This document shows, piece by piece, positions 2,150 through 18,992 of a DNA stretch of 45,038 nt; the stretch's first letter is position 1; the number at the start of each line of letters is the position of its first letter. This stretch comes from Verrucomicrobiaceae bacterium. GTDB taxonomy: Bacteria > Verrucomicrobiota > Verrucomicrobiia > Verrucomicrobiales > Verrucomicrobiaceae. The stretch covers positions 1 through 45,038 of the forward strand of contig JAEUHM010000013.1 of NCBI GenBank assembly GCA_016795485.1, given 5' to 3'. Position numbers and translations under genes: made by a program. Under the pieces are notes generated by a model. The model did not search any database. It saw only the letters and a program-made list of their open reading frames with translations, and had not been told where the DNA came from.

Positions 2150-3877
2150 ATGATCCGCATTCTTCGCACGCACTTTGGACGCATCCTGGGAATTGGGGGT
2201 GTCGTGGCGTTCGCGTTAGGAGTCTTTGGCTTTCGCTCCTGCTTTCCGGAGTTGAGCTTGGACACGATCATTTACCGTACCGTGCAGCTCTTCTACTGGG
2301 GCTATTCCCCTTGGGATGCGGGTAAGGAACTGCCTCTGCCTTGGACGCTAGCCGTGGCTCGTTGGCTGGCTCCCGCAGTGCTTTTGGGTGCTTTGTTCAG
2401 CGTGGCTATCAGCGTGTTCGAACAAAAGTGGCAAGCTTGGTGCATTCAACGAATGCGTGGCCATACCATCGTTTGTGGTGCAGGAGAGAAGGGTGGCGTG
2501 CTGGTGGCAGATTTGCAGAATCACGGCCATGCGGTGGTGGTCATCGATCCCTCAGAATCAATCTCCAAGGAGGGTCGTTTGGTGGTAACAGGTGATGCAA
2601 CAGAGCGCGGAGTATTGACGCGTGCCGGCATCGCGCAAGCCAGTCGTCTGGTGGCTCTTACCGGTGATGATCATGACAACCTCGCTATTGCTGTAGCTGC
2701 CGCACAAGCAGCAGGCGCGGATACAGGGCTTTCCATCTTCCTCCACAGCGGTGATGCATCACTTTGCGATCTCTACCAACGCAATCGAGCTCTTACTGCC
2801 TCTCTAGGTGGCGTGCCGGTGCGTGTATTCAATCACTACCGCAACGTAGCTCGGCGGACCCTACAGGATTTTCCGCTCAATCCACAGACGGGGCAAGCGC
2901 ATCTGATTTTACCGGGACTGTCCCGCGTCACGCTGGCACTCGCGGTGGAGTACGCCCTTGTGGGTCATTTCCCTGAAGAGAAGCGCACTCACATTCACCT
3001 CGCAGGTCCAAATGCGGAGGCAGATTTAGCCAAACTACGCATGAAGTATCCTAACATGGATCAGTGCGTCTATTTGCACACGCTTCCAGTGCGGGAGGGG
3101 CAGCGATTTTCTTCAGTCGTGGCAGAAAAGGTGAGATCCCTGGCTACAGACGACTGTTTTGCCATCTGTCCAGGCACAGAAGATGACAACGAGGCCTTCG
3201 GTCATGCGCTTGAACTCTATGAAATGCTCAGTACGCACCTTAACGTACAGTTTCTGCTGGACACTCTCCCCGGTGCTGCTGTCCGCCGTTTGGTGGAAGC
3301 CAGCAGTGAACTCAAGAAGCGCATATCCTTTCTTCCTACTGGCCAGCCTGCTAGCGGATACGAGGCTGTGATCGGCGACTCGCTGGATCGCACCGCTCGT
3401 ATCATCCATGACAATTGGCTGGCAGAGACACGGAAGCAAATCGCCGCCGCGCGTGCTGCGGGTAATGAGGACCTGGCAAAGAAACACGAGATGAAAGGGA
3501 CTTATCGGCAGTGGGGTGAACTCACGGAAGAGCAGAAGGGCGCAAATCGCTCCCAAGCTGACCACATTGCCTTCAAACTCCGTGCTGTGGGCCTTGATCC
3601 GGCATCTGCGACTTCCGAGGCATGGGCTAGATTGAATACTGAAGAGGTAGAAGCACTCGCACGTGTGGAGCATGCCCGCTGGGCTGCGTATCTCTGGATG
3701 ACCGGCTGGACTTACGCCCCAGAACGAAACGATCTGAAGAAGCAGCACCCCAATCTCGTCCCATACGACGATCTGGATGAGCCCACCAAGGACTACGACC
3801 GTGAGGCTGTGCGGAACCTTTGTGAATACCTCCCTCGACAAATAAACACGAACAAACACACCCACAACCGAACATGA
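2150..3877 (+). CDS. Two-TM protein with TrkA-N nucleotide-binding domain and C-terminal RyR domain
   Basis: This 575-residue protein has two predicted membrane helices (about 12-30 and 66-90) flanking a short segment that could be a pore-like or re-entrant loop. A Rossmann TrkA-N (RCK-type) domain follows, with G110-x-G-x-x-G115, an acidic residue after the second strand (D133) and the TGDAT strand at ~147. Residues ~503-555 match the RyR domain in its prokaryotic form: a His-Ala-Arg-Trp-Ala start, GWTYAPERND, the KKQHPNLVPY core and a terminal KDYDRE. TrkA-N domains bind NAD(H) or other nucleotides in potassium channels and transporters. RyR domains were first defined in ryanodine receptors. 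I infer a ligand-gated membrane protein or channel; transport is not shown. Its stop codon overlaps the next ATG (ATGA), which indicates translational coupling. Confidence 0.85.
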   Translation: MIRILRTHFGRILGIGGVVAFALGVFGFRSCFPELSLDTIIYRTVQLFYWGYSPWDAGKELPLPWTLAVARWLAPAVLLGALFSVAISVFEQKWQAWCIQRMRGHTIVCGAGEKGGVLVADLQNHGHAVVVIDPSESISKEGRLVVTGDATERGVLTRAGIAQASRLVALTGDDHDNLAIAVAAAQAAGADTGLSIFLHSGDASLCDLYQRNRALTASLGGVPVRVFNHYRNVARRTLQDFPLNPQTGQAHLILPGLSRVTLALAVEYALVGHFPEEKRTHIHLAGPNAEADLAKLRMKYPNMDQCVYLHTLPVREGQRFSSVVAEKVRSLATDDCFAICPGTEDDNEAFGHALELYEMLSTHLNVQFLLDTLPGAAVRRLVEASSELKKRISFLPTGQPASGYEAVIGDSLDRTARIIHDNWLAETRKQIAAARAAGNEDLAKKHEMKGTYRQWGELTEEQKGANRSQADHIAFKLRAVGLDPASATSEAWARLNTEEVEALARVEHARWAAYLWMTGWTYAPERNDLKKQHPNLVPYDDLDEPTKDYDREAVRNLCEYLPRQINTNKHTHNRT

Positions 3878-4338: not shown

Positions 4339-5196
4339 ATGAAAACATACATCCAGACCCTGATTGCTCTCTTCGCCTCAGCATTGCTCTTACCTGCCGA
4401 GGACAATCACTACAAAGTGCTCAACCAATGGGGAGAAGAGAGTGCACCATGGAAAGACGGCGGTTCTTGGGTCATGGGCAGCCGTTCTGAACAGAACATC
4501 GTAGCCCTGGAGGTAAAGAGTGATGACGGCGGGGAAACGCTGATCGGAACTGTCACTTATGAGGGGGAAGGCCCCATCGGCTTTAAAGGAGAAAGCGGAG
4601 AACCCCACACCTACTACGTGAAAAATGAGTTTGGTGGAGCATGGCATGAAGGTGGAGCCTGGTACATTGGTGATCGGGACAATCAGGAAGTCGTGGCGCT
4701 GAGTCTGAAAAGTGAAGATGGCGGGAGAACTTTAGAAGGCACGATGACCTACAGCGGAGAAGGTGCCATCCGTGTCCGTGCGGCATTGTTTAATGCCTAT
4801 GAAGTAGAGAACCGCTGGGGAGATGCTGCCGAGCCTTGGCGGGCAGGCGGACACTGGACCCTTGGAGGCAGGTTGGAACAAAAGGCGGTCCAGTTCAGCA
4901 TCAAAAGTGATGACGATGGACAAACTCTCACTGGCACCATGACGTATGCCGGTGAAGGCTCAGTAGATTTCCGCGCAAAGCGGGTCAAGCAGAACACTTA
5001 TAAAGTGGAGAACCACTGGGGAGATGCTGCCGAGCCTTGGCACGAAGCGGGCACCTGGAAACTAGGCGGACGTGACGACCAAAACGTCGTCGGTCTTGAA
5101 GTAAAGAGCGAAAACGAGGGCAAAGACTTCAGTGGCACGGTCACATACAAAGGAGAAGGCCCAATTGACTTCCGCGCTCGCATATTTGTTCCTTAA
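4339..5196 (+). CDS. Secreted four-repeat lectin of the OAA / Myxococcus hemagglutinin family
   Basis: This is a 285-residue protein with a signal peptide (cleavage probably after LLLPA) and four tandem repeats of about 62-70 residues starting near residues 25, 94, 157 and 223. Each repeat follows the pattern N-x-W-G, A/E-PW, GG-x-W, GxR-x-x-Q-x-V, KS-x-x-GG-x-TL, GT-x-TY and GEG-x-I-x-F. This is the hallmark of the Oscillatoria agardhii agglutinin family, whose members bind branched high-mannose glycans. OAA has two repeats; the Myxococcus hemagglutinin MBHA has four, like this one. Repeat 2 is degenerate: it has F in place of W in the WG motif and lacks the PW. The signal peptide is notable because OAA itself was found in cell extracts. 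It lies 21 bases after the previous gene. Family assignment is strong; the natural ligand is unknown. Confidence 0.92.
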   Translation: MKTYIQTLIALFASALLLPAEDNHYKVLNQWGEESAPWKDGGSWVMGSRSEQNIVALEVKSDDGGETLIGTVTYEGEGPIGFKGESGEPHTYYVKNEFGGAWHEGGAWYIGDRDNQEVVALSLKSEDGGRTLEGTMTYSGEGAIRVRAALFNAYEVENRWGDAAEPWRAGGHWTLGGRLEQKAVQFSIKSDDDGQTLTGTMTYAGEGSVDFRAKRVKQNTYKVENHWGDAAEPWHEAGTWKLGGRDDQNVVGLEVKSENEGKDFSGTVTYKGEGPIDFRARIFVP

Positions 5197-5607: not shown

Positions 5608-6492
5608 ATGAAACTTCTCTCCGGTGTGATATTGTTCACCGCTCTCTTCACGCCACTGGCCCAGGCCGAATCCTCAGATCGACTCACGACTCTCGTCAAA
5701 GAAGTGGAGGCGTTGGAGAACGAGAGTGCGGCTTGGCCACATTTTGTCCTTTCAAAGTCTGATGAGGAAGGCGGCTATGTGCAGGAGCGCCACACTTGGC
5801 AGCATCCAGAACACCGACTCACTGCAAAGACGAGGGTCTTCGACTATGACGACCATGGAGAACTCACCATCGAGACCGTCATGAAAGAAGGGAAGCTGTT
5901 GTATGTCTTGAAGCGGAGAACCAACACGCCCTTTACCGAGAATGCCAAGACCTCAGTGACCGAGGAGCGGTTCTACTTTGACAACAAGAAGCTCATAGGA
6001 GCCTTTGCCAAATCCGCCTCACTTCCCCCAGATCAAAAGCCTGACATCTCAGGCGTCAAGAATGAGGAACTGCCTCTGGAACAAGTGAAAAACTCAGGGT
6101 CTCTATTTTTGACCCACGTACGCCTAGCTCTCTCCAATACAACACGGATACCTGGCTTGATGGACAGTCTCAAAAAGGAGGATGAAAGCCCCGTCTTAGT
6201 CGATGATGAAGACGAACCCACTGGGCAACCCAAGGTCACGCAAGTGGTGGGCACGTTCAAGGGCATTGAGGAAGGCGACTACTATCACTGGAATATGACC
6301 ACGGAGAAGGGTGAGGACTTGAGCCTCTATATCTGGGAAGCTGGCCCAGATATAGATTCGCTGCTCAAAGAAGCCGACCAGCACGTAGACAAGAAATGCC
6401 GCGTCTACTGGACGAAGCAATCCCGCAACATCCCCGAAGCCGATGGCAACACCGAGGTAGAAGAACTAGTGCGTTACGAGTGGATTAAGTAG
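5608..6492 (+). CDS. Secreted protein of unknown function
   Basis: The 294-residue product has a standard signal peptide ending at LAQA (residue ~20). The mature part is rich in Glu, Asp and Lys, has no cysteine pairs, and shows beta-type segments such as the HTW..HPEHRLTAKTRVFDYDD stretch. No enzyme motif or known family was recognised. It is the last gene of the plus-strand series and ends 4 bases before the stop of the minus-strand series, so the two transcription units converge here with no obvious terminator hairpin between them. Confidence 0.75.
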   Translation: MKLLSGVILFTALFTPLAQAESSDRLTTLVKEVEALENESAAWPHFVLSKSDEEGGYVQERHTWQHPEHRLTAKTRVFDYDDHGELTIETVMKEGKLLYVLKRRTNTPFTENAKTSVTEERFYFDNKKLIGAFAKSASLPPDQKPDISGVKNEELPLEQVKNSGSLFLTHVRLALSNTTRIPGLMDSLKKEDESPVLVDDEDEPTGQPKVTQVVGTFKGIEEGDYYHWNMTTEKGEDLSLYIWEAGPDIDSLLKEADQHVDKKCRVYWTKQSRNIPEADGNTEVEELVRYEWIK

Positions 6493-6496
6493 AGAT

Positions 6497-7153
6497 CTAC
6501 TTTGCAGATAGCGACTTCACTTCGAAGCTGCCTGCCTTGAAGGTGCCAGAGAAGGTGAACTTAGTCCCATCTTCATCGCCCCTAGGCACTTGGGTAAACC
6601 CAGAGCCAGTGAGAGTTCCATTTTTGCCGAAAGTGGGCTTTTCCACTGTCAGAACGCCAGCAAACTTCGGGTTCTCCTTTTCCTTGGCCGCAGCGGCTGC
6701 AATCAGACTCTTTCTCACGTCTCCCAGCCAAGTGGCCTTGCCATCGGTAATGCGGAATGCCTCTGCGTTCTGAGTTTCCCAATTGCCCTGCTGCATTTGC
6801 ACCACTTGAGTGGAGTCCTTGGACCATGCTGCCTCGTGCGTGTTGTTGTTGTAGCTTTGATTAGGACCCAAGTGCCAGACGGCACTCCATGCGATGACTT
6901 TGTCCGCCTTCAAGTCTACCAAACAGGTCGTCTCATCGTCTTTGTATCCGAAGGCATAAAGTCCATTAGGGGACTTGGAACCTTCGATGATCTCGCAGAC
7001 TTTGGATGCCGGTTCAGTGGGCAGGGCACGGGTGCGAATGGCTTGATATTTGGCTTCTTGCTCGCGCAAAGCTTCATCCACCGTTTGGGCGGATGCAGTA
7101 ACCAAAAGTAGCAGCAAGAGCGCTGAGGAGAGAATCGATTTGGTGGTATTCAT
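6497..7153 (-). CDS. Secreted protein of unknown function
   Basis: The 218-residue product has a signal peptide with a poly-Leu core, cut probably after TASA. The middle (residues ~50-145) has the look of a beta-propeller-like or LpqB-like unit: phrases such as SPNGLYAFGY, a WS-containing strand and AAWSKDSTQVV recall the S-P-D-G-K motif of one or two blades. The C-terminus is a short beta domain rich in Gly and Thr. It is the last gene of the minus-strand series, 24 bases after the L,D-transpeptidase gene. The function is unknown; a periplasmic location is likely. Confidence 0.7.
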   Translation of the reverse strand: MNTTKSILSSALLLLLLVTASAQTVDEALREQEAKYQAIRTRALPTEPASKVCEIIEGSKSPNGLYAFGYKDDETTCLVDLKADKVIAWSAVWHLGPNQSYNNNTHEAAWSKDSTQVVQMQQGNWETQNAEAFRITDGKATWLGDVRKSLIAAAAAKEKENPKFAGVLTVEKPTFGKNGTLTGSGFTQVPRGDEDGTKFTFSGTFKAGSFEVKSLSAK

Positions 7154-7177: not shown

Positions 7178-8182
7178 TTAGTTGGTGAGGATGGAGAAAT
7201 CTTTGCTGGCTTTCCTGACGGCGGCCTCGTCGGTGACCACGATGGTGGCACCAGGGCTGAGTTGGTCGTACACTTTTGCGGCAAACTCCGGTGGAACAAC
7301 CACCCGGGCTGCAAGTTCATCAAAGTCCGTCTTCTTCGGATTATCAGAGGCACTCGCCACGGCCAACCATTTCCGGGCTTTGCGGAAGGGCGCCAGAATG
7401 CTCCACTTTTCACTGCTGCCCTCCAACATGGAGAACACGTGGCCGCCCAGTGGATCGCTGCCGACAATCTCAATCGCTGCCGTGCCGATGGGCGTGCCGT
7501 TACGATAGACATAAATGGCTTTGTCAGCGCTGCTCACTAGGATCGTCACCGGCCCGTCAGCACTCCGCTCGGGACGCCAATCATAACCACCCGCTGGGAG
7601 TGGCTTGATCATGTCGTTCGTGAAGTCCTTTGGTGCGAGAAGAACCCCAGGGTTGGATGCAAAGTGTGGTTCAGTAGCTTTTGTGCCGCCAATGACCACG
7701 GTGCCTCCTTGAGCTGTCAGGTTAAAGAGCAACTTGGAGAAATCATAGGGCATTCGGATGCACCCGTGACTCGCCGGGTAGCCTGGGAGGTTCCCGGAGT
7801 GCATGCAGATGCCAGTCCAAGTCAACCGCTGCATGTGGGGCATGGGCGCATTGGCGTAACTGGAAGAATAGTGAGACTTTTTCTTCTGAAGGATTGTGAA
7901 TACTCCAGAAGGAGTGCTGTGACCTTTGGCACCAGTGCTCACGGAACTTCGTCCCACAAGGATGCCATTGCGATACACATGCATCACTTGATTCGGAATC
8001 GACACCAGCACCATCACCGGGCCTGTGGGTGAGACAACAGGTGCCCACCAGTATTCTCCCGGATTGATCGGACCGGAGGGTCTTCCTGTGGGTGTTCCTT
8101 GGGTGTGCGAGGAGGGTTTCTCCATGGCACTACCCGTGAGGAAGGACGCCAGAAAGAGGACGAGGACTAGGACAAGTCGCAT
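7178..8182 (-). CDS. L,D-transpeptidase (YkuD family) with a degenerate second copy
   Basis: L,D-transpeptidases cross-link peptidoglycan stem peptides through diaminopimelate or attach proteins to the wall in the periplasm. The 334-residue protein has a signal peptide (1-19). A YkuD domain at ~54-168 has the expected motif: H128-x-G130, then S138-H139-G140-C141-x-R143, where C141 is the catalytic cysteine. Residues ~185-334 repeat the start of the same fold (the P-V-x-x-x-V and I/M-x-V-Y-R-N-G strands recur) but lack the SHGCxR motif, so the second half should be non-catalytic. It sits 10 bases after a small secreted-protein gene. The enzyme call is firm; the role of the second half is open. 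Confidence 0.9.
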   Translation of the reverse strand: MRLVLVLVLFLASFLTGSAMEKPSSHTQGTPTGRPSGPINPGEYWWAPVVSPTGPVMVLVSIPNQVMHVYRNGILVGRSSVSTGAKGHSTPSGVFTILQKKKSHYSSSYANAPMPHMQRLTWTGICMHSGNLPGYPASHGCIRMPYDFSKLLFNLTAQGGTVVIGGTKATEPHFASNPGVLLAPKDFTNDMIKPLPAGGYDWRPERSADGPVTILVSSADKAIYVYRNGTPIGTAAIEIVGSDPLGGHVFSMLEGSSEKWSILAPFRKARKWLAVASASDNPKKTDFDELAARVVVPPEFAAKVYDQLSPGATIVVTDEAAVRKASKDFSILTN

Positions 8183-8192
8183 GACAATTGCT

Positions 8193-8585
8193 TTATTGGG
8201 GGATGGTCTTCACCAGTTCGTATTCACCAACGTATCTCGACTCTCCATCTTCATCACGCATGAAGATTTGCAGCTTGCCGTCTTTGCTGACCACGTAGAA
8301 CTGCATGATCGCATGCGCCCAACTGCCGCGGCAAGCGGTTAGAGCCTCGGTGGGGATTTTTTGCTTCTTGTAGTCTGCCTTGTCCACCGTGTGGTAGTTA
8401 CCGGTCACATGGTCGTTTATGAGTTGGCGTTTGCCATCTACGTCCAAGAATAGCTTCCCTCTGGGGATACCGTTGTCGTCATCCTTGAGGTCAAAGTGCC
8501 AGGCAACTTTGGGGTCGGCAGCGAGGAGGCTGATAGGCACGGCGAGCGCGACAGCGAGAAGCATGAGAAGATTGCGTGTGGTCAT
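8193..8585 (-). CDS. Small secreted protein of unknown function
   Basis: I place the start at the ATG at 8585 because it gives a 130-residue protein with a clean signal peptide (cleavage after LLAA). A longer frame to 8804 would run 188 bases into the caspase gene and add a segment with no signal. The mature part is ~108 residues with alternating strands (KVAWHFDL, GKLFLDVDGK, MQFYVVSKDGKLQIF). No family was recognised. It lies 31 bases after the caspase-like gene and 10 before the L,D-transpeptidase gene, and is probably cotranscribed with both. Confidence 0.7.
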   Translation of the reverse strand: MTTRNLLMLLAVALAVPISLLAADPKVAWHFDLKDDDNGIPRGKLFLDVDGKRQLINDHVTGNYHTVDKADYKKQKIPTEALTACRGSWAHAIMQFYVVSKDGKLQIFMRDEDGESRYVGEYELVKTIPQ

Positions 8586-8616: not shown

Positions 8617-9711
8617 TCAGTTTGGCTTGATGCGTGAGGGGGAAATCCATTCGTCATAGCGAGAGTTGCGTCCGTCATAGCGGCACTCGTGCATGTTTTG
8701 GAAGCGCTCCAGCACTGTGCCAGGCACCCATCTACCTTCTCCATTTTTGATGAGCACTCTGGTGCCTGGTTTGTAGATGGCGTATTCGAGCGCTTTGACA
8801 TCATCCCAAGTCATCCATGAGTATTTAGCATACCGACTTTTGTCGGTGAAGTGGACTCGTATCTGATCCCCTTTCGTGTCAACAATCTCGGCTTTATACC
8901 AACTGTTTCCGTCACGTGCGAGCAGTCGTTTCCCAATGTTCTTGTTAGCTGGTCGCCTCACTTTTGACAGGGCCAGATCCCAGGGGAATGAGCCAGTGGT
9001 GACGTGCAGGGGCTTGCCTTCTGCAACAAAGGCCATGTAGTATTCTGCAAAGATGCACAACTCCTGGAAGCTGATACTGCGATCCTCATCGAAGTCCATG
9101 GCTACATCACCGGACCAAGCGCGCCGCAATAAATCCGTGAAGCGCCAGCCGCTGTAGCCCACGTTGCATGAGCCAGTGGTGCTGAGTGCTCCGTAGGAGA
9201 TGTCTATGGTTCCACTTTCACCACGCGATTTGGCCAGATCCACCATGCCGCCGGAGAAACAGCAGTCAGAGAAGAGCATGACCTGCTTACCTTTGAACTT
9301 TGACTCGATACTCTTCACGAACCAATCAATGCTGATCGACCCATCAAACGCAGAATAAGTATGTGTGCCGGTTTTTGGATCGTAGCCACCGTGACTGCTG
9401 TAATAGAAAATCAGCATCTCATCCTCCTGGCTCAGACCAAGAAAGTAAGGCACTACTTTGGTGATGGTGTTTTTGGTTGCCCTTGAGTCCTTGAGATAGA
9501 GCATGTTGTCCAAAGGCACGCCCAAGCTTAAGAACTGCCCGACGAGCGGATCATCCAAACGATCCGAAGTGGAGAAAGATGTGTTGCCCGGTGTTTCACC
9601 CGCAAAGGCGGCGAGACTGATGACGATGACTCGTGTTTTGGCAGGACTCCAATCCACAGCGCTAGCTGACTGGCCGATCAACAAACAGAGGACAAGTGCA
9701 GCGTACTTCAT
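8617..9711 (-). CDS. Secreted caspase-fold peptidase (C14-like) with EF-hand-like loop and two Tudor-like domains
   Basis: The 364-residue protein has a signal peptide (1-18). Residues ~25-235 form a caspase/metacaspase-type domain: the catalytic His is H107 in the YYSSHGG motif, and the Cys is C151 in SDCCFSGG, matching the D-x-C-x-S-G motif of clan CD peptidases. An EF-hand-like 12-residue loop (D206, D208, D210, S212, E217) lies in the p10 part; bacterial and plant metacaspases often need calcium. The C-terminus has two similar modules of ~50 residues (258-308 and 313-363), each with a G-x-R/K-V/L start, a W-x-x/P-x/G-x-V/I strand and a D-x-x-x-Y-D-E-W-I/V ending in the second. They resemble Tudor-knot or agenet domains. 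The gene overlaps the upstream one by four bases (ATGA at 9708-9711, minus strand). Substrate unknown. Confidence 0.87.
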   Translation of the reverse strand: MKYAALVLCLLIGQSASAVDWSPAKTRVIVISLAAFAGETPGNTSFSTSDRLDDPLVGQFLSLGVPLDNMLYLKDSRATKNTITKVVPYFLGLSQEDEMLIFYYSSHGGYDPKTGTHTYSAFDGSISIDWFVKSIESKFKGKQVMLFSDCCFSGGMVDLAKSRGESGTIDISYGALSTTGSCNVGYSGWRFTDLLRRAWSGDVAMDFDEDRSISFQELCIFAEYYMAFVAEGKPLHVTTGSFPWDLALSKVRRPANKNIGKRLLARDGNSWYKAEIVDTKGDQIRVHFTDKSRYAKYSWMTWDDVKALEYAIYKPGTRVLIKNGEGRWVPGTVLERFQNMHECRYDGRNSRYDEWISPSRIKPN

Positions 9712-10235
9712 TGTGCCTGATACTTGTATGAAGCGAGAGACTGAAAAGTCGGCAGTTTGATCGAGCGTTTTACGCGGATTATGGCCTCTAATGGGGTCAT
9801 CACGAGCTCGGCAAGCCCCCGATTGGGAGAACGAATCGCATCACGAACTGCACCACAGACTGCGCCACGCTCGGTGTTGTCGCCACGGCTGGCATAAGAT
9901 GCCCACTTCACGTTATTGTTCAAATCGGTGAGCCGCAGAGCAGCAGATCTATAATGCGGATACTCTTTACTCGTAAACTGAGCACACGAAAACCTTTGTC
10001 CCTCTGTGACGTCTGCGTGCAGCAGAAGACTGGCAACTGTCCTCTCTTGGACCGGCACATATCCTTGTCGGCGAATCAGTTTCGCCACTTCTGTTGCCGC
10101 ATCACTGTGATTGCACACGATCAGGACGTGATTGACAGCGTTGCTTGGTGAGATACGGGCGGCACAACTTGCTGTCAGCAGTGATGTGCTAAACATAAGT
10201 ATGCGCCAACAGGCACCTGGGGAGAGAGAAAACAT
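9708..10235 (-). CDS. Secreted protein of unknown function upstream of the caspase gene
   Basis: The frame is open from a TTG at 10319, but the first ATG (10235) gives a 175-residue protein with a plausible hydrophobic N-terminus, and an ATG at 10196 is also possible. A Ser-Cys-Ala-Ala segment at the end of the hydrophobic stretch could be a weak lipobox, so the protein may be a lipoprotein. The domain that follows begins with a strand ending in VCNHSD and helix AATEVAKLIRRQG, like a Rossmann-type or caspase-like fold edge, but no catalytic pair is visible. Its stop overlaps the start of the caspase-like gene, so production is coupled and the two proteins may act together. Confidence 0.65.
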   Translation of the reverse strand: MFSLSPGACWRILMFSTSLLTASCAARISPSNAVNHVLIVCNHSDAATEVAKLIRRQGYVPVQERTVASLLLHADVTEGQRFSCAQFTSKEYPHYRSAALRLTDLNNNVKWASYASRGDNTERGAVCGAVRDAIRSPNRGLAELVMTPLEAIIRVKRSIKLPTFQSLASYKYQAQ

Positions 10236-10339
10236 TGGGAGAGTGAATCTGCTCGACAAGCAGATAAATGTCAGGCTATGAAGTCTGACGGAGAAAGGCA
10301 AGCAACATATTCTCCGCAATCACGAGCTGATTTGACGCA

Positions 10340-10753
10340 ATGTATTCCCCAATCCACCTTGTATTTTATCTGCTGACTTTGTTATTGCCCGCAGATGTAA
10401 CGGAGTTCACTGTCACCGCAAAACATGGTGACCAGAAGCTACAGGCCACGTGGACGAAGACTGACAAAGGTTGGCGTGGCAAAACCGAGAGTGGCGATGA
10501 TATGGGGTTGTGGTCTGTACCATCGCCATTGACAGTGCTTACCATCAATCCAGACGGCACATCATCCAACACCAGCTTCAAAGGATTGCTTGTGACTAAA
10601 GATGTCGGCGGTGACAAGCCAAAAAGCTTTATCATGGCGGGTGATCCTGTCGAAGTCGTGCGGAAGGACGGCTCTATATCCTTCAAGGTGCCAGATTATG
10701 ACCACGCGCTTGTAGCAACATTCACCACCAAGAAATCAGGGCCAAATCCTTGA
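10340..10753 (+). CDS. Small secreted protein of unknown function
   Basis: The 137-residue product has an N-terminal hydrophobic stretch (residues 5-18), probably cleaved, then a beta-rich domain with W-x-K-x-x-x-G-W and several Thr/Lys strands. There are no cysteines. It is transcribed away from the caspase-containing series; the gap is about 100 bases and could hold promoters for both. It converges with the cytochrome/WD40 gene, 26 bases apart. No family was recognised. Confidence 0.65.
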   Translation: MYSPIHLVFYLLTLLLPADVTEFTVTAKHGDQKLQATWTKTDKGWRGKTESGDDMGLWSVPSPLTVLTINPDGTSSNTSFKGLLVTKDVGGDKPKSFIMAGDPVEVVRKDGSISFKVPDYDHALVATFTTKKSGPNP

Positions 10754-10779: not shown

Positions 10780-13700
10780 TCACTTCTGAACCACGGCTGA
10801 TGGCTTGCGGATTTTGAGCAGGACGGGGTAGCTTGTTTCGAGGCCCTCACTTGTTTGTTCGTTTCGGGTGGAAGCCACTGCGGCGTGGATGAGACGGTCT
10901 TGTTCAGGCACCCACTTGGCGGCGGTGAGGAAGATCTCGCGGATGTCTTCTCCCTCACGTACTTGCACTCCGTTGAGGCCAATGTTGTCGACGATGACTC
11001 CGAACGGCAGATTGTGGATATCGAAGTTGAGTAGACCTTTGTCCATAAAGCGATCAACGCGGATAAACGCGGCAACGGATTGCCCAGGAGAAAGCGTGAT
11101 TTCAAGTGGAGTAGAACTGGCGCGCTTCACAGGTTGATCTTGCACACTGGGCTCAAGGTTGGCGATAAATCGTGGTTTAGGTCCGATCTTTGGCGTCCCG
11201 AACCCAGTGATAGCTTGTTCGATTTTTCTCCCTTCAACTATCGCAGTGGCGATGACTCGCATTTTGCTGAAGTCTGTAGTTTCTGGTGCTGATTCACTCA
11301 CCGATAAAGATCCAGTAGCCAGGACATGTCCCGCTTGAATAACAACTGGGCTTGAGACATGCCAACCCTGGGGCACGTCGCTAACCGTGACTGTAATAGC
11401 TCCTTCAAAGCCATCCAGACGCTCTGCCCGCAATGAAACCCCCTTATTTCCGCCCCTACCGATGGTGTCATTCATTCCGAGCAACTGCATTTTGAATGAA
11501 GGGACAGGTTTCCGAGCAATAAGGCGATACGCGAACCTATCACCACTCCAGCCGCGAGAGTCGGTCACCCGGATGACGTAGTGTCCATCGACTGGAGCCG
11601 TAAACGTTAGTTTGGAATCTCTGCCGAGCTTCCTCTGGCCGTCGTCGTCATTTGCGCACGGGATAGAGAATACAGGAAGTCCATTCGGAACGGGTTGTTC
11701 GCCCGGCGTGAGTGGTTGGACGATGTAGGCTGGTTCCTCGAGTGCGTGGCCGGTGGCCGTCGTATCGAACCATGCGATGCGCTTGCCGCCGTTATTGTAA
11801 AAGAGAAAGCCAGCGTCTGGGCCACGGGGATTGCGGAAGATGCGCATCACGTCGCCATTGAAGTAGACGTAGTCATTCAGGTCCATTTCTGTCCAGAACT
11901 CCAGACGGATGTCTGGATTGTTGGCGTCCACACTTCGGAAGTTGTTCCATGTATCACGCATCGCACGGAGCCGGACACGTTCTACAGGCTGACCGGTGGC
12001 CGTCAGGACCTCAATCTTGGTGTCAGTAGGGGCGTTGTGCACTGCCGCAGCAGTCTCGATGATCCATTGTTCGTTTTTCTTGGCGCTGAACTTGAAGTGG
12101 TCTGCATCCGAGGTGGCGGTTGTGTTGTAAAGACGGCCATTCATGACGCCAGGGACAGTGAATGATGGTGCGGTGGCTAGATCGTCATTGGGTTCCGCCT
12201 CGATGGCTTCTGTCATCGTGCTGATTGGAATGGTCAGCGGGTATCGCGAGCGCAAGGTTTTGATTTCACTCGGAACATTTCCATCGGTGACCTGCATCGT
12301 GCTGCTTGGCAGATTGACGCCGATCAAGTTCACCGTCGTTGTTTTTCCAGCAGGCACCGCCAATGGCCACCACCCCGTGATGTAGGGGAGTAGACCGACT
12401 GTGAGACGGTAGTGGTGACTTGGCGAGCCATCCAATGTTGTCTCACTCACTCTCGCTGTGTAGATGCCGCTCTTGGGTGCTTTGAATGCGATGAAAGGAT
12501 CGGTGCCGCTGTCGAGTCCGCGACTGAATGCGAGGCGTGATCCTGACGCATCGAAGACTTCAAGCTGAATCGTTTCTGCTTTAGAGCCGATAGAGCGCGC
12601 CGCGACGTCTAGGACAATCGTTTCACCAGCTTTCGCGTCGAATGGGTAGTTGTCACGTTGTCCCACGTCCCGCAGCACTCCAAAAAAGTTGGTGCCTGAT
12701 TGAATAGGCGCTTCAGGTGGCGCGTTCGACTGAGGAATGTTGTCCCCAAGAAGTGGCAGACCCGCAATTGAGTACACTCCGCGTGGAAGCTCAGCGGGAG
12801 TGTCTATTTGAATGACCATCGTTGGTCCGCCGCTAACGATTTTCGCCGTGATGCGAGCGTCACTGGTTTTGATCGCCTTCAAACTCTGTAAGTTCTTGCC
12901 AGCGAGGGTGAGACGAGTGGATCTGCAGATTTGAAAGCCACGCGGAGAGATATTGGTGACCTCGGCGGCAGCTTTTGCCTTTGGTTTTGCCATTGGTTTC
13001 GGCGGGGAAGAGATGAGTTGTTCTGCTATTGCTTTGCCCAAGGTATGAAGGGCGCTACTTCCGTCCTGACGGGCAGTGGCGAGACGATCACTCGCGATCC
13101 AGGCGATCGCTCCGGCCCAGTCTGGCTGTTTCTCGAAGATTGACTTTTCGCTGAAAGTGCTGGCGTCCCAGAGCTTGATCGTCTTGTCCGAAGCAGAAGA
13201 GGCCAGCAGTTTACCATCCTTAGAAAAGGAGAGTGCTAGGACGGCTCCTTCGTGGGCGAACTGGGTCGCTTGAATTGGGTTTGAGCCCTCTGTGGCTGTG
13301 GGACTAACTTCCCAAATGCGGATGCGATTGTCAGCACCTCCGGCGATCACTTTTTTGCCGTCCGGTGTGAAAGCCACTGCAAATTGTTCCTTGGTTGGTT
13401 GCGAGAAGGTGTCAAGACGACTGCCCTTGGTTGTGTCCCAAAGTTTGATCGTGCGGTCTGCACTGGCGCTGGCGAGAACTTTACTATCGGGGCGAAAGCT
13501 AAGGCCATTTACGCTACCGTTGTGCCCCTTCAGTGTGGTCACTTCCTTTCCAGAGGCGGTGTCCCAGAGTTTAATCAGCTGATCATATCCGCCAGTGGCG
13601 AGGCGCGTTCCATCCGCAGACAGCGCCACGGCATGAAGGGCATCCCGATGGCCAGTAAACTCACGAACGATCGTTTTGTCTGCGACATGGAGCTGATATG

Positions 13701-14316
13701 CCGTACCGGTGATGCCCGCCTCTCCAGCTGCTACGTAAAGCTGTGCTCCGTCTTGGCTGAAGACCAGAGACGAGGCCTTTCCAGCAATGCCAGTGATCAT
13801 TCCCTTGGACTGACGCAGTTTGAGGTCCACCAACTCCACGCTGCCGTAACGGCCGATAGCGGCGACTGCGCTATCAGGGGAGGTGGCGATAGAATAAATC
13901 GGCTTCGTGTTAGACTTAGCGGTTACTTTTGGCAACAGCAGTGCTTTGGGTGTCGAATCGGAAGGCCCTTTGGCACCTTCTGTGATCCATTGTTTGACCA
14001 GCGCGGTCTGCTGAGGCGAGAGGTGGGCGCGCTTGCCTGGCGGCATAAACTGGTTTTTGCCAATTTTACCGCTTTTGCCTTCGAGAAACTTCACCAAGAG
14101 GGACTCATCTGCCTTGCCCGGCTCGAAGGACTGGCCCGCATCACCACCTTTTTGCAAGGCGGCAAAGTTTTCTAACGAGAGACCACCATCGGCATCGCCT
14201 GAGCCATGGCAGTCTGTGCAGTGCTCGTCCCACAGAGGCTGGATTTGCTTCTGGTAGTCGACAGCGCCTGAGAGGGTGCTGGCTGAGAATGCGATGAGAG
14301 GCAGGAGGATGCGCAT
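10780..14316 (-). CDS. Secreted cytochrome c / WD40-repeat / PPC-domain protein
   Basis: The ATG at 14316 is chosen because it directly precedes a good signal peptide; a TTG at 14334 is the only longer option. The product has 1178 residues. Residues ~20-105 are a planctomycete-type cytochrome c domain with heme motif C33-x-x-C36-H37 and a likely distal Met91 in an MPPG motif. Residues ~130-440 contain about six WD40 blades (GH...LASASADRTIKLWD-type repeats), which should form a beta-propeller. Residues ~450-800 look like IPT and pre-peptidase C-terminal (PPC) beta-sandwich domains, and further beta domains follow. Such proteins are common and often multiplied in Planctomycetes and Verrucomicrobia; the redox partner is generally unknown. 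A terminator-like hairpin separates it from the giant lectin gene upstream. Confidence 0.88.
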   Translation of the reverse strand: MRILLPLIAFSASTLSGAVDYQKQIQPLWDEHCTDCHGSGDADGGLSLENFAALQKGGDAGQSFEPGKADESLLVKFLEGKSGKIGKNQFMPPGKRAHLSPQQTALVKQWITEGAKGPSDSTPKALLLPKVTAKSNTKPIYSIATSPDSAVAAIGRYGSVELVDLKLRQSKGMITGIAGKASSLVFSQDGAQLYVAAGEAGITGTAYQLHVADKTIVREFTGHRDALHAVALSADGTRLATGGYDQLIKLWDTASGKEVTTLKGHNGSVNGLSFRPDSKVLASASADRTIKLWDTTKGSRLDTFSQPTKEQFAVAFTPDGKKVIAGGADNRIRIWEVSPTATEGSNPIQATQFAHEGAVLALSFSKDGKLLASSASDKTIKLWDASTFSEKSIFEKQPDWAGAIAWIASDRLATARQDGSSALHTLGKAIAEQLISSPPKPMAKPKAKAAAEVTNISPRGFQICRSTRLTLAGKNLQSLKAIKTSDARITAKIVSGGPTMVIQIDTPAELPRGVYSIAGLPLLGDNIPQSNAPPEAPIQSGTNFFGVLRDVGQRDNYPFDAKAGETIVLDVAARSIGSKAETIQLEVFDASGSRLAFSRGLDSGTDPFIAFKAPKSGIYTARVSETTLDGSPSHHYRLTVGLLPYITGWWPLAVPAGKTTTVNLIGVNLPSSTMQVTDGNVPSEIKTLRSRYPLTIPISTMTEAIEAEPNDDLATAPSFTVPGVMNGRLYNTTATSDADHFKFSAKKNEQWIIETAAAVHNAPTDTKIEVLTATGQPVERVRLRAMRDTWNNFRSVDANNPDIRLEFWTEMDLNDYVYFNGDVMRIFRNPRGPDAGFLFYNNGGKRIAWFDTTATGHALEEPAYIVQPLTPGEQPVPNGLPVFSIPCANDDDGQRKLGRDSKLTFTAPVDGHYVIRVTDSRGWSGDRFAYRLIARKPVPSFKMQLLGMNDTIGRGGNKGVSLRAERLDGFEGAITVTVSDVPQGWHVSSPVVIQAGHVLATGSLSVSESAPETTDFSKMRVIATAIVEGRKIEQAITGFGTPKIGPKPRFIANLEPSVQDQPVKRASSTPLEITLSPGQSVAAFIRVDRFMDKGLLNFDIHNLPFGVIVDNIGLNGVQVREGEDIREIFLTAAKWVPEQDRLIHAAVASTRNEQTSEGLETSYPVLLKIRKPSAVVQK

Positions 14317-14407
14317 ACGAAAAGATACGCTCAACGATACACTTCCGCCCAGCGGTTATTGCGCCCCAGAGCATGGGATTTTCGGCCATGAGGGCCCAAA
14401 ACGCAAA

Positions 14408-14456: not shown

Positions 14457-17400
14457 TCAAGGCAGGCGAATGATAACAATCGATTCCGTTTTATCGCTAA
14501 AGTAGAGGCGTGCAACCAAAGCGCCGTTGCCGTTGTAGCTGCGGGCTTGGCCGGGGCTGCCGGGGACAATACCGAGGAGCGTGAAAGCGGAGACACGCTT
14601 GCCGGTTACTGCGTCTCCTTCACGGAGGACAAGCTGCGATTTTCCAGCACTGTTCACAGCCCAGAGGCCGGTGTCGTTTGCCGTTGTGACGCCTCCAGGA
14701 CCAGGGCTTGTTTTGCCGATTTTGCTGGCGAGTGCAGCCGTGAATACTGGCCCGCTGGCCCCTCCTGGAAGCGCAAGGGAACTGAATGTCTGAAAGACAC
14801 CTCCATTGCAACCCGGAGCCTCTTCTCCGGTGCGGGCGAGGACGACAGGAGTGCCGCCAGACACCGCACACGCAATTGCTGTCGAGCGAGCTGTATTCGC
14901 TGCGGTGATGGCTCCAGACCAAGCGATCATCCCAGAGTCGCTGGCTACTGGATCGGCAAATGAAGTCCAGCTCATGCCGGTGTCACCAGCGAGGTCGCCT
15001 TTGCGCGCAGGCATTTCCCACTTTCCAGCAATGTTCGCCACAATACCTGTATTGTTGGCAGAGGTGATGCCGCTGCCTTTGGGCATGGAGAATGTCTGAT
15101 GGAATGCCATACAACCTTTAGCCGTCATCACGGGGACACCTTGTGCCTTGGAAGTAAAGCCGGACATGAGCTGGAAGCCAGATTGCGCCACTGCGTTGAA
15201 TCGCGGGCTATCGCTTAACTCGTCGAGCTGATAGGTGATGACTGTTTTGTCGGTACAGACGACACGCACGGCTGTGTAGCCGCGCGCTGTGTGGTGACGA
15301 CCATGCCCAGGGCTGCCTGCTACGGCACCTAGCATTTGAAAGCTGCCAACGCGTTTGTTGGTGCCACCAGCACAGGTGACGGACTGACCTTCACGAAGTA
15401 GCTGACTGATGCCCTCCCCAGCAGACCAGCGGTAGGTGGCCACATCGCTGTCTTTTGTGGCGCTGCCTCCAAGGATCGCGGTGAACAGAATCTCATCTTC
15501 CACCAGTGACAGGGACTGGAAGGTCTTGAACACAGTGCCGGGAGCTGCGGTGTCGCCCGCCCGTGCCACTAGGGTGAGTTTGCCACCGACGTTCGTCCAG
15601 ATACCGGTGTTCGTGGTAGTGGCGAGCGCGGATGATCCGTCTGGGGCCTTTATGCGGGCGACAAACGCGATGTAGGGCTTCACTCCAGAGCCGAGATTGA
15701 GGCAGGGATCATAAAGTTTAGCGAACAGATCGTTTGATGTGCCAGGCGCTTGGTCGCCTTCCGAGACAACAAGCTCAGGTGGGCTCCCGGCAAAGATTCC
15801 TGCCACCGTTGAGGTTCCTGAAGTGTAGTTTCCAATGAATGCCAAATGCTCTTGATCGTTAATGGCTGGGACACCGAACTTTGTAAAAGAGGTTCCACTT
15901 GGCGCCCCCATGGCTGAGGCGCTGTTATTTGAGGAGGCGATGCTCACGATCTGAGCTTCCCCCGGCACGGGGTTTGGTGTCTTTACGGCGACATCAATGG
16001 AGGTGGTGGTGACGTTTTTACGGGCATCATATGCTGAGATGGTCACAGTAGTTATACCAGAGACCGCGATACTACCAGCTGGCGGCTGTTGGATGATGCG
16101 AGTTACAGCGACATTGTCTGAGAACGATGCGCTGCTCATGTAGTCTGGGATCAAGTCGCCATTGGTTAGCGTGAGCGGGCTGAATCCGCCTCCGGGTGAC
16201 TTGATTGTCGGTGGTGTGCGGTCAACAACAGTCAAATGGAAGCCGAGCACCGAGGTTTCTCCACTAGAGGTCGTGAGCGTCAGGGTGATGTCGTGCACTC
16301 CGGCTGGCAATTTCGTCCCAGGAGCTGGACTTTGACTGACAATGGTGCCATTGCCCGCACTGTGTGTGGCTTGGGCTCTGTAGTCTGGGACTGTTCCATA
16401 GGCGGTAGTGTCCGTGTCCACAGAGATTGGGTTGAAGTTGCCATTGAAGTCAAATGCTCCTGGATCGCCGCCAAGGTGCGTCACCACGATGGTGCCCGCA
16501 TTGCTCACTGAGCGGCGCTTCAAGCTGAACTCCAACCCACTTATTGCCGTGGTAGAGAAGTCGATGTCGATCCACTTTCCCGCCTGTGTCGTGCCTTCTG
16601 GAGGTGCGCCATTCTCGACGGCCATGTTGCCATTCGAGAACTCGGGCGGGTGGGAATAAGTGAAGAAACTTGCGTTCCAAGGCACAGTGATTTTCACACC
16701 TGCGGCAGTCCAATAACTGAAGTTTAGCACTTGTTCGTTAAGTTCTGCATCTTCCAAACGAAAATGGATGCCCTGAATGGCGCGTGGATTGCCCGTGCCC
16801 ACATCGTAAAAGCGGAACTGTACCAGTGAAGGCTCGCTGCCGGACGATGCGCCTTCTACCCACCAAGAATCTTCTCCAAGCACATGGATCATGCCATTTC
16901 TTGAGAGGCCTGCGGTGGTGAGATGCACGTCGAAGTTCCGATTGCTTGCATCACTGAACACCACGGAAGGATTCGTCGTGTTTGGAATCACCGTTGCGTC
17001 CAGAACTCCCATCGTGGCATCTGAGCCAGCCGGTCCCCAACGCAAAAGTGTAGTGCGGAACGAAACGATGTTACCTCTCACGTTCAGCCCCGTGGAGTAT
17101 CGCACTTTGGCTCTAAAATAGTACACAGTGCTGGGGTCGAGACTGTTTGCTGATGTCCTTAGCGTGGTGGTGCCTGTGCCTGACCCCACTGATGTGCCGC
17201 CTGTCGTACTGCAGGATGCTAGTGTGGCATCGGTGCCGTAGTCGAATAACAGCGTTCCTGTCCGTGTGCTCAGGGGGATCTGCGCTCCTAGAGATGCGGA
17301 GGTCGGGCGGATATCGTTCGCCGCAAGAGTCGTGACCCCCGTATCTAATCCAGGCCAGCCGAACTGCCCGTCCTCAAGATCCACGCCGTTGGCAATGCCA

Positions 17401-18824
17401 TCATTGTCCGAATCGGCATTTTGAGGGCTTTCGATGCGTCCGTTGCCGTTTGGATCCAAGGTGGCTGAGGGAAACCCTGCCTCTGCGAGGTCCGTGGTGA
17501 CGTTGCCATTGGAGTCGAGGTCCAGGTAATTGGGGTTCGTATCAAGATCGGAGTTAGTGGGCACTGGGTCGCCGTTGTCACCCACCGTGGTGCTGCCGTC
17601 AGCGATGGACATGATCCCATCTTTATCGGCATCGGTAAGACCCGTGTCGGCCGTGCTTAGAAATCCATCTCCATTGGTGTCAGCTGCCTTAACCGCTGCT
17701 GCGGCGCTCTCGAAAAGGTCGGTCAGACCATCATTGTCGCTGTCTAGGTCGCGAACATTTGGCACTCCGTCACTGTCGGCATTGGGTAGCGTTGCCAGGA
17801 CACTTGCGATGATGCCCGTCAGGCCAATGATGCCATCGGCACGCCCATCTCCGTTGACGTCCGTGATTAGACATTCTCGCACATCGTTTATCCCGTCATT
17901 GTCGCTGTCGAGATCGAGCGAGTTAATGACTCCATCTCCGTCTGGATCTCCGGTTCCCTCTAGCGTGTCTAGCAGTCCATCACCATCGTCGTCCACGTCG
18001 ATTTCATTGGAGTAGCCGTCATTGTCCGGGTCCGCAATGGTCGGCGGTAATCCGATGGTCAGCGTTTTGATCTTCACTTTCTGAAGGTTAGTCGCCCCGC
18101 CTGTGGATGCTGTGAACCCGACGAATGCGGACGTGGCACCCGCGAGGAAGTCGGATGAAAAGGTCGTTGTGGCACTTATTCGCCGAATGCCGTCCCAATA
18201 GACTCTCAGCGTGCGTGTGGAAGCCACGTAGTCCAGCACCATCGTGTGATAGGCACCATCCTCGATATTTGTCGTGCCGAAGCTGTAGTAGCTTGCTGCC
18301 AGATTTGGCCACGGTGTTAGAGTGGTGGCATCTCCACGATTTAGTGAAAGGTGGTCTGCATTGACTGGGTCGGAGTAACCGATCTCAGTGTTGTACCACG
18401 TATCCATTTTCAAGACCATCGATGGAGTGATTCCGAGCGCTCCAAGACCTCCTCCAGGTGCCCCTTGTGCAGTGGTCCCCGTGGTTTGGATGACCAATGC
18501 CATCCCATCAGCACCACCATTGTTGCTTCCAAGATAGACGTCATACTCAAGCCGGAAATCTCCACTGATCGGGAACGCATTTTTGTACCAGACGACTCCA
18601 AGCTGGCTGCCAGCATCGGGTGTGAGAATCAGCTCGGATCCGCTTCGGGATGCATTGCCGCGCAACACCCAGTTGGCGTAGTTGTTGGTTTGGGGCTGAT
18701 CAATGATTGTCTGTGCGGCCGCTGTCCCGAGTGCAGCACACACGAGAACGGCCAATTTGGCCATTCGGCGCACAAACGCTTGAGGCGATGTGGGCAGGCT
18801 GTCTTTGAGCTTTCGTGGTGTCAT
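14457..18824 (-). CDS. Giant secreted protein: L-type lectin domain, thrombospondin type 3 repeats, HYR-like and NxxG repeats
   Basis: The ATG at 18824 gives 1455 residues with a signal peptide (cleavage probably after GTAAA, near residue 38); the GTG/ATG frame further up adds only a non-signal segment. Residues ~40-270 resemble a bacterial legume-lectin-like (L-type) domain with GG-A-D-G-M-A-L-V-I-Q and a late Y-W-D-G strand. Residues ~275-490 carry Asp-rich calcium-binding thrombospondin type 3 repeats (DPDNDGYSN, DSDNDGI types). Middle beta domains follow, including HYR-like segments (~840-970). The last ~450 residues contain at least three repeats around N-D/N-T-G-I/L-W/V...R-x-G-D. This is a long adhesive or stalk-like surface protein. 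No PEP-CTERM or LPXTG sorting signal is visible at the C-terminus, so how it is held at the surface is unclear. Confidence 0.85.
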   Translation of the reverse strand: MTPRKLKDSLPTSPQAFVRRMAKLAVLVCAALGTAAAQTIIDQPQTNNYANWVLRGNASRSGSELILTPDAGSQLGVVWYKNAFPISGDFRLEYDVYLGSNNGGADGMALVIQTTGTTAQGAPGGGLGALGITPSMVLKMDTWYNTEIGYSDPVNADHLSLNRGDATTLTPWPNLAASYYSFGTTNIEDGAYHTMVLDYVASTRTLRVYWDGIRRISATTTFSSDFLAGATSAFVGFTASTGGATNLQKVKIKTLTIGLPPTIADPDNDGYSNEIDVDDDGDGLLDTLEGTGDPDGDGVINSLDLDSDNDGINDVRECLITDVNGDGRADGIIGLTGIIASVLATLPNADSDGVPNVRDLDSDNDGLTDLFESAAAAVKAADTNGDGFLSTADTGLTDADKDGIMSIADGSTTVGDNGDPVPTNSDLDTNPNYLDLDSNGNVTTDLAEAGFPSATLDPNGNGRIESPQNADSDNDGIANGVDLEDGQFGWPGLDTGVTTLAANDIRPTSASLGAQIPLSTRTGTLLFDYGTDATLASCSTTGGTSVGSGTGTTTLRTSANSLDPSTVYYFRAKVRYSTGLNVRGNIVSFRTTLLRWGPAGSDATMGVLDATVIPNTTNPSVVFSDASNRNFDVHLTTAGLSRNGMIHVLGEDSWWVEGASSGSEPSLVQFRFYDVGTGNPRAIQGIHFRLEDAELNEQVLNFSYWTAAGVKITVPWNASFFTYSHPPEFSNGNMAVENGAPPEGTTQAGKWIDIDFSTTAISGLEFSLKRRSVSNAGTIVVTHLGGDPGAFDFNGNFNPISVDTDTTAYGTVPDYRAQATHSAGNGTIVSQSPAPGTKLPAGVHDITLTLTTSSGETSVLGFHLTVVDRTPPTIKSPGGGFSPLTLTNGDLIPDYMSSASFSDNVAVTRIIQQPPAGSIAVSGITTVTISAYDARKNVTTTSIDVAVKTPNPVPGEAQIVSIASSNNSASAMGAPSGTSFTKFGVPAINDQEHLAFIGNYTSGTSTVAGIFAGSPPELVVSEGDQAPGTSNDLFAKLYDPCLNLGSGVKPYIAFVARIKAPDGSSALATTTNTGIWTNVGGKLTLVARAGDTAAPGTVFKTFQSLSLVEDEILFTAILGGSATKDSDVATYRWSAGEGISQLLREGQSVTCAGGTNKRVGSFQMLGAVAGSPGHGRHHTARGYTAVRVVCTDKTVITYQLDELSDSPRFNAVAQSGFQLMSGFTSKAQGVPVMTAKGCMAFHQTFSMPKGSGITSANNTGIVANIAGKWEMPARKGDLAGDTGMSWTSFADPVASDSGMIAWSGAITAANTARSTAIACAVSGGTPVVLARTGEEAPGCNGGVFQTFSSLALPGGASGPVFTAALASKIGKTSPGPGGVTTANDTGLWAVNSAGKSQLVLREGDAVTGKRVSAFTLLGIVPGSPGQARSYNGNGALVARLYFSDKTESIVIIRLP

Positions 18825-18992
18825 GTTCTGATTGGTTGATGAGTCTTGGAAGCGGGAGAGAGGGGGAGAAATTGAGTCGCGTTTTCCGCTACACAAATGT
18901 GGCATAAACAACAAAAAATGCTATTAAATATGGTAATTACATAGAATAGACGCAAAAACCGGCGCGCTGTTCATTTCACAAGTCGTTTTTTT
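18825..18992. promoter_or_regulatory. Upstream region of the giant lectin gene
   Basis: This AT-richer stretch probably holds the promoter for the minus-strand lectin gene. No convincing -35/-10 pair or Shine-Dalgarno could be chosen by eye. It borders the structured segment at 18993-19185. Confidence 0.3.

Follow-up and report, generated by a model that had tools for sequence, protein, structure and literature searches.

What would a bacterial caspase that appears to be made for export do with two Tudor-like barrels at its C-terminus? The question is raised by one gene of the window, by which we mean the whole 45,038-nucleotide stretch analyzed here (positions 1 to 45,038 of contig JAEUHM010000013.1, Verrucomicrobiaceae bacterium, assembly GCA_016795485.1). 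The gene lies on the minus strand at 8617-9711, starts with ATG and contains 364 codons with no internal stops. The answer that we favor, with a probability of about 0.55, is that it encodes an exported cysteine endopeptidase of the caspase family whose two Tudor-like barrels would bind an envelope peptide, bringing the cutting domain to its substrate. A database search gave 44 homologous proteins, window protein included, all better than 1e-57; after three proteins of 207-243 residues (P0030, P0040 and P0041) were left out, 41 rows remained in our main alignment (A1), to which the counts below refer. The gene and its parts are as follows.

8617..9711, minus strand: gene for the 364-residue caspase-like protein with a tandem Tudor-like C-terminus (open reading frame (ORF); Pfam C14 and Tudor-knot matches above cut-off; AlphaFold2 (AF2) model with a predicted local distance difference test score of 90.9)
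9658..9711, minus strand: signal-peptide-like N-terminus, residues 1-18 (from the sequence; hydrophobic 11-mer in 38/41 rows)
8962..9642, minus strand: predicted caspase/legumain-fold domain, residues ~24-250
9391..9393, minus strand: catalytic His107 (invariant, 41/41)
9259..9261, minus strand: catalytic Cys151 (invariant, 41/41; aligned to Cys139 of Arabidopsis metacaspase-4)
9265..9267, minus strand: Asp149, acidic, two residues before the catalytic Cys and probably in the S1 pocket (invariant, 41/41; aligned to Asp137 of metacaspase-4)
9061..9096, minus strand: putative EF-hand-type calcium loop, residues 206-217 (31/41 strict, 40/41 with Thr allowed; overlies a like loop of some other bacterial caspases)
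8788..8937, minus strand: Tudor/Agenet-like module 1, residues 259-308 (sub-threshold Agenet match; strands in models; profile matches)
8620..8775, minus strand: Tudor-knot/chromo-like module 2, residues 313-364

In the proposed mechanism the leader would export the protein to the cell envelope, where the C-terminal Tudor-like pair would act as a recruiting module by binding an envelope peptide. Recruitment would place the caspase domain at a substrate that His107-Cys151 would cut, probably after basic residues (Arg or Lys), and calcium at loop 206-217, in the second half of the domain, would stabilize or activate the enzyme. We infer proteolytic activity, specificity, calcium binding, ligand binding and export; in the sequence the basis is the His107-Cys151 dyad, the invariant Asp149, a canonical EF-type loop and a hydrophobic leader.

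The caspase assignment came from both sequence and structure. Pfam Peptidase_C14 matched residues 78-165 with 30.1 bits (curated cut-off 21.4), and structural comparison of the model found a caspase/legumain-type (caspase-haemoglobinase) fold. The structural alignments reached residue 249-250, inside the second half of the caspase fold, which bears on the p10 question; orthocaspases are described as having no p10 and as needing no calcium for activation (PMC5756287). Besides H107 and C151, the residues D149, D53, S153, G154 and W189 were invariant, and the conservation of the catalytic pair in all 41 rows led us to reject an inactive pseudo-peptidase on sequence grounds. The dyad named in an earlier, first-pass annotation of this DNA is therefore intact by sequence, and fold and dyad are well supported. 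Matches to C14 were found in 39 of the 41 rows (E up to 0.01), to Agenet and Chromo_MORC2_6th in 35 each, to Tudor-knot in 15, to EF-hand_1 in 5 and to Peptidase_C13 in 2. With the orthocaspases and metacaspases MaOC1, AtMC4 and TbMC2 the protein shares the fold, the His-Cys dyad and an Asp two residues before the Cys; it differs from them in its C-terminal tandem barrels and in the EF-type loop of the second half. Basic substrate residues are accommodated in TbMC2 by Asp95 and Asp211 (PMC6426788). Because of this, and because Asp149 aligned with Asp137 of metacaspase-4, an acidic S1 pocket resembling that of metacaspases would favor Arg or Lys before the cut.

The calcium-type loop that the annotation had placed at residues 206-217 was found exactly there: DFDEDRSISFQE fits the 12-residue D-x-D-x-D/S pattern with Glu at position 12. 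The strict pattern was passed by 31 rows and, once Thr was permitted at position 5, by 40; position 1 was Asp in 41/41, and position 12 was Glu in 38/41 and Asp in 2/41. Pfam EF-hand gave no match for the window protein at E up to 1. In the AF2 model the loop follows a helix at 190-200 and leads into another at 215-229. Alignment of hidden Markov models (HMMs) against eight bacterial caspases drawn from other subfamilies (probability 99.2) carried the loop onto a like region; the loop therefore belongs to the second half of the caspase domain, rather than being an added domain. In the joint alignment it overlay EF-type loops in three of the eight (L036, L038 and L064) and a looser loop in a fourth (L031), and no such loop was visible under it in L037, L059, L062 or L063. 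That such a loop might be a general property of C14 peptidases was rejected on a rough motif scan, in which it was present in 3 of 35 dyad-bearing caspase loci. The regular expressions found the dyad in 35/41 loci and missed it in six; L005 and L008 are the same gene, one of the three loops is doubtful (L052), and in L031 a C14 gene other than the matched one was taken. Calcium binding by residues 206-217 would stabilize or activate the enzyme. EF-hand motifs have been reported in seven archaeal orthocaspases (PMC6426788), one of the reasons why the claim of an unusual domain set is not supported.

Export is suggested by the N-terminus, MKYAALVLCLLIGQSASA, which is signal-peptide-like as judged by reading the sequence, in agreement with the annotation. 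A hydrophobic 11-mer (Kyte-Doolittle threshold) precedes the domain in 38 rows, and two of the three failing rows have no residues in that region. The host genome (6.5 Mb, 61 contigs, 99.87% complete) carries this gene as the sole copy of its family among 10 Peptidase_C14 places, this gene included (9 in a wider run). Seven of the nine other places (L001-L007) were judged by reading the sequence, and all seven start signal-peptide-like. Together with a 2012 count of 46 prokaryotic metacaspases or caspase homologues with one N-terminal helix, maybe a signal peptide (PMC3501461), this removes the claim that an exported caspase is unusual. As a separate observation, five caspase-family genes, all starting signal-peptide-like, lie within ~11 kb of the host genome (G000:C18:136260-147441).

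The annotation had also described two C-terminal Tudor-knot modules ending in DEW. Structure prediction, which it had proposed as a check, returned a caspase-type fold and, after it, two SH3-like barrels, and modules 1 (~259-308) and 2 (313-364) were both strand-built and barrel-like in the models. The Tudor-knot pattern held for module 2, which matched Pfam Tudor-knot at 315-362 (26.0 bits, cut-off 20.8) and ends in DEW (353-355). Module 1 gave only a sub-threshold Agenet match at 270-290 (21.4 bits against a cut-off of 27) and has SW at 298-299 where DEW had been claimed. Profile matches included FMRP/FXR pairs across both modules and KAT5 and SETDB1 across module 1. Compared with the Tudor or chromo modules of FMRP/FXR, 53BP1 and MRG proteins, the window protein has in common the barrel fold, part of the aromatic cage and the DEW ending of module 2; it differs in being bacterial and probably exported, in a cage that is incomplete by alignment and in how the barrels are placed. 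Thus the domain identities are supported: a caspase/legumain-type fold, Tudor/chromo barrels and an intact His-Cys dyad.

The combination itself had been reported. Kaur et al. (2018) described secreted bacterial proteins in which chromo-like domains are fused to caspase-like peptidases, listed planctomycetes, cyanobacteria, bacteroidetes and chloroflexi for this architecture, and mentioned EF-hands among other partners of these domains (PMC5906684); the word 'Verrucomicrobia' is absent from the main text of that paper. Since the caspase and Tudor-like combination is already described in other bacteria, the domain set is a known one, not the unusual one first proposed, and the window protein is a well-preserved verrucomicrobial example. 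It shares with those proteins a caspase-like peptidase domain joined to Tudor/chromo-like barrels and differs in that its clade has Lys/Arg, not an aromatic residue, at one cage position per barrel.

A contig scan with the single protein as query found zero relatives; a scan led by the alignment recovered 17 loci from several phyla, and 15 of these contained caspase as well as barrel pieces. Of the 17, L030 breaks off within the domain, L031 lacks barrels, the caspase frame of L019 is interrupted by a stop and L016 has to be pieced together from two frames. Matches were present in 6 of 57 near genomes, host included, one of them (G044) at no better than E 1e-3; one genome with a matching contig, G032, is in the same family as the host. 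Phylum-wide, at least 7 of 387 genomes matched at 1e-10, a lower bound because no more than five candidates were scored in any genome. Nearly the whole profile was covered in only two of these (the host and G355), the barrels alone in two and the caspase part alone in three. This patchy distribution is what lateral transfer or frequent loss of the gene would be expected to give. Separately, related genomes encode signal-peptide-like proteins in which two (L034, ~1489-1809) or three (L035, ~1300-1815) DEW-type Tudor-like modules precede a further C-terminal region, with no caspase domain.

In a run of genes on one strand, the caspase gene comes after an orphan ORF and before genes for a small signal-peptide-like protein, a YkuD L,D-transpeptidase and a second signal-peptide-like protein. 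The nearest members of the run are these.

9708..10196, minus strand: small upstream ORF that shares 4 bp (ATGA) with the start of the caspase gene; a database search finds only itself
8193..8585, minus strand: small downstream protein, signal-peptide-like and without a Pfam match, linked to the gene by operon-like spacing alone; no copy found in the other loci searched
7178..8182, minus strand: YkuD L,D-transpeptidase (Pfam YkuD, 79.7 bits), 10 bp past the previous stop; not found in the other loci searched

The upstream ORF was dropped as a known partner, its one match in the protein database being itself. When the window neighbors were searched by tblastn against loci L010 and up, 9708-10319, 8193-8585, 7178-8182 and 10340-10753 matched only the window's own copy (L032), 6497-7153 and 5608-6492 matched nothing, and a piece of a 1184-residue protein at 10780-14334 matched L014 besides L032. 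A conserved operon with the L,D-transpeptidase is unsupported, as the neighbors were not found in the relatives' loci; their absence is weak evidence because many of these loci have short flanks.

Several findings weigh against the recruitment model. The barrel pair superposed poorly on solved tandems (Foldseek query template-modeling score 0.37-0.45, root-mean-square deviation at least 6 Å; 6.9 against ZGPAT), and for this reason the modeled mutual arrangement of the two barrels is not a known one. The cages look incomplete by alignment, with K291 and R348 replacing chromo/MBT aromatic residues. The characterized orthocaspase MaOC1 is calcium-independent (PMC7475262). The residue equivalent to Asp95 of TbMC2 differs between alignments: we attempted to place D53 on it, and global HMM alignment (hhalign) chose D54 and MAFFT chose L52, although the invariant residue is D53. 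Five cyanobacterial or chloroflexal relatives (L020, L023, L025, L026 and L027) seemingly start directly at the caspase domain, so an envelope location does not hold for all members; of two further relatives, L021 carries a twin-arginine-like leader and L024 has an ambiguous start (all starts chosen by eye). Finally, the context names no substrate, as the operon neighbors were not found near relatives. As an observation in its own right, the apparent lack of a signal peptide in those five relatives runs against a published claim of consistent secretion.

These points have to be set against the alternatives. The pocket of legumain is of mixed charge, and Arg51 (kept in 40/41 rows) with Asp149 could form such an S1 pocket, making the protein a legumain-like exported endopeptidase or transpeptidase specific for Asn. 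A legumain-like pocket with Arg51 is possible, and the reading as a whole is doubtful: the window protein matched C14 and gave no Peptidase_C13 match at E up to 1 (Pfam), the family divides 39 to 2 in favor of C14, and the protease matches of its sequence profile in the PDB (E up to 0.01) were metacaspases and GSU0716, none of them legumain. We consider it quite unlikely that the barrels read methylated lysine or arginine (or RNA) as in eukaryotes, which would make the protein a reader-protease of methylated targets. Good barrel matches do include the methyl-lysine readers MRG2 (with H3K36me3), L3MBTL3 and 53BP1, and Kaur et al. proposed that bacterial versions bind methylated-lysine-like groups in murein or matrix peptides (PMC5906684). 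The cage positions, which we assigned after those of MRG15 and take to be equivalent, give a divided answer. W328, Y345 and Y352 of the window protein are aromatic, as are these positions in 41/41, 38/40 and 37/40 rows (F, W, Y or H), whereas R348 in module 2 and K291 in module 1 are not. Position 348, a Trp or Tyr after Gly in ARID4A/MBT, was Lys/Arg in 30/40 rows and aromatic in 7/40; position 291 was Lys in 31/41 and aromatic in 2/41. In a wider alignment (A2) of 21 pieces, from which L022 (same contig as L010), L014, L029, L030 and L031 were left out, the two positions were aromatic in 15/21 and 8/21, respectively. The signal-peptide-like start also speaks against chromatin or RNA targets.

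We offer only as a speculation, with little confidence, that the Tudor pair of the verrucomicrobial clade, once a methyl-lysine reader, has become a gate. Each barrel has a basic residue where a cage aromatic would stand, a disulfide between the cysteines of a clade-specific pair, C219 (protease half) and C343 (module 2), would staple the second barrel to the protease, and ligand, calcium and redox state would jointly switch on the envelope caspase. Both cysteines were present in 29/41 rows; three rows had C343 alone, nine had neither, and none had C219 without C343. Because these 29 rows consist of the window protein plus the 28 nearest to it, common descent accounts for the pattern no less well than a disulfide would. 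A defense caspase triggered by phage (abortive infection) is very improbable; it would fit a weak match to a PADLOC caspase model (22.7 bits, residues 73-179), against which stand the signal-peptide-like start, neighbors not found near relatives and the result that none of seven other window ORFs scanned matched any PADLOC model at E up to 0.001.

The protein is a clean, single-copy and compact (364 residues) representative of the secreted caspase-Tudor type with an invariant dyad, and therefore a good subject for work on the extracytoplasmic ligands of such barrels and on the calcium dependence of exported bacterial caspases. The Lys/Arg of its clade at the cage position offers a direct test of the published methyl-lysine-like reading of murein by the barrels.

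Other genes of the window also carry recognizable domains. The plus-strand gene at 4339-5196 has four matches to the OAA-family lectin sugar-binding domain, and that at 2150-3877, also on the plus strand, joins TrkA-N to the ryanodine-receptor RyR domain and adjoins a TPR protein at 32-2131. On the minus strand, 14457-18914 encodes 1485 residues with an L-type (legume) lectin domain, HYR and a DUF7453 region.
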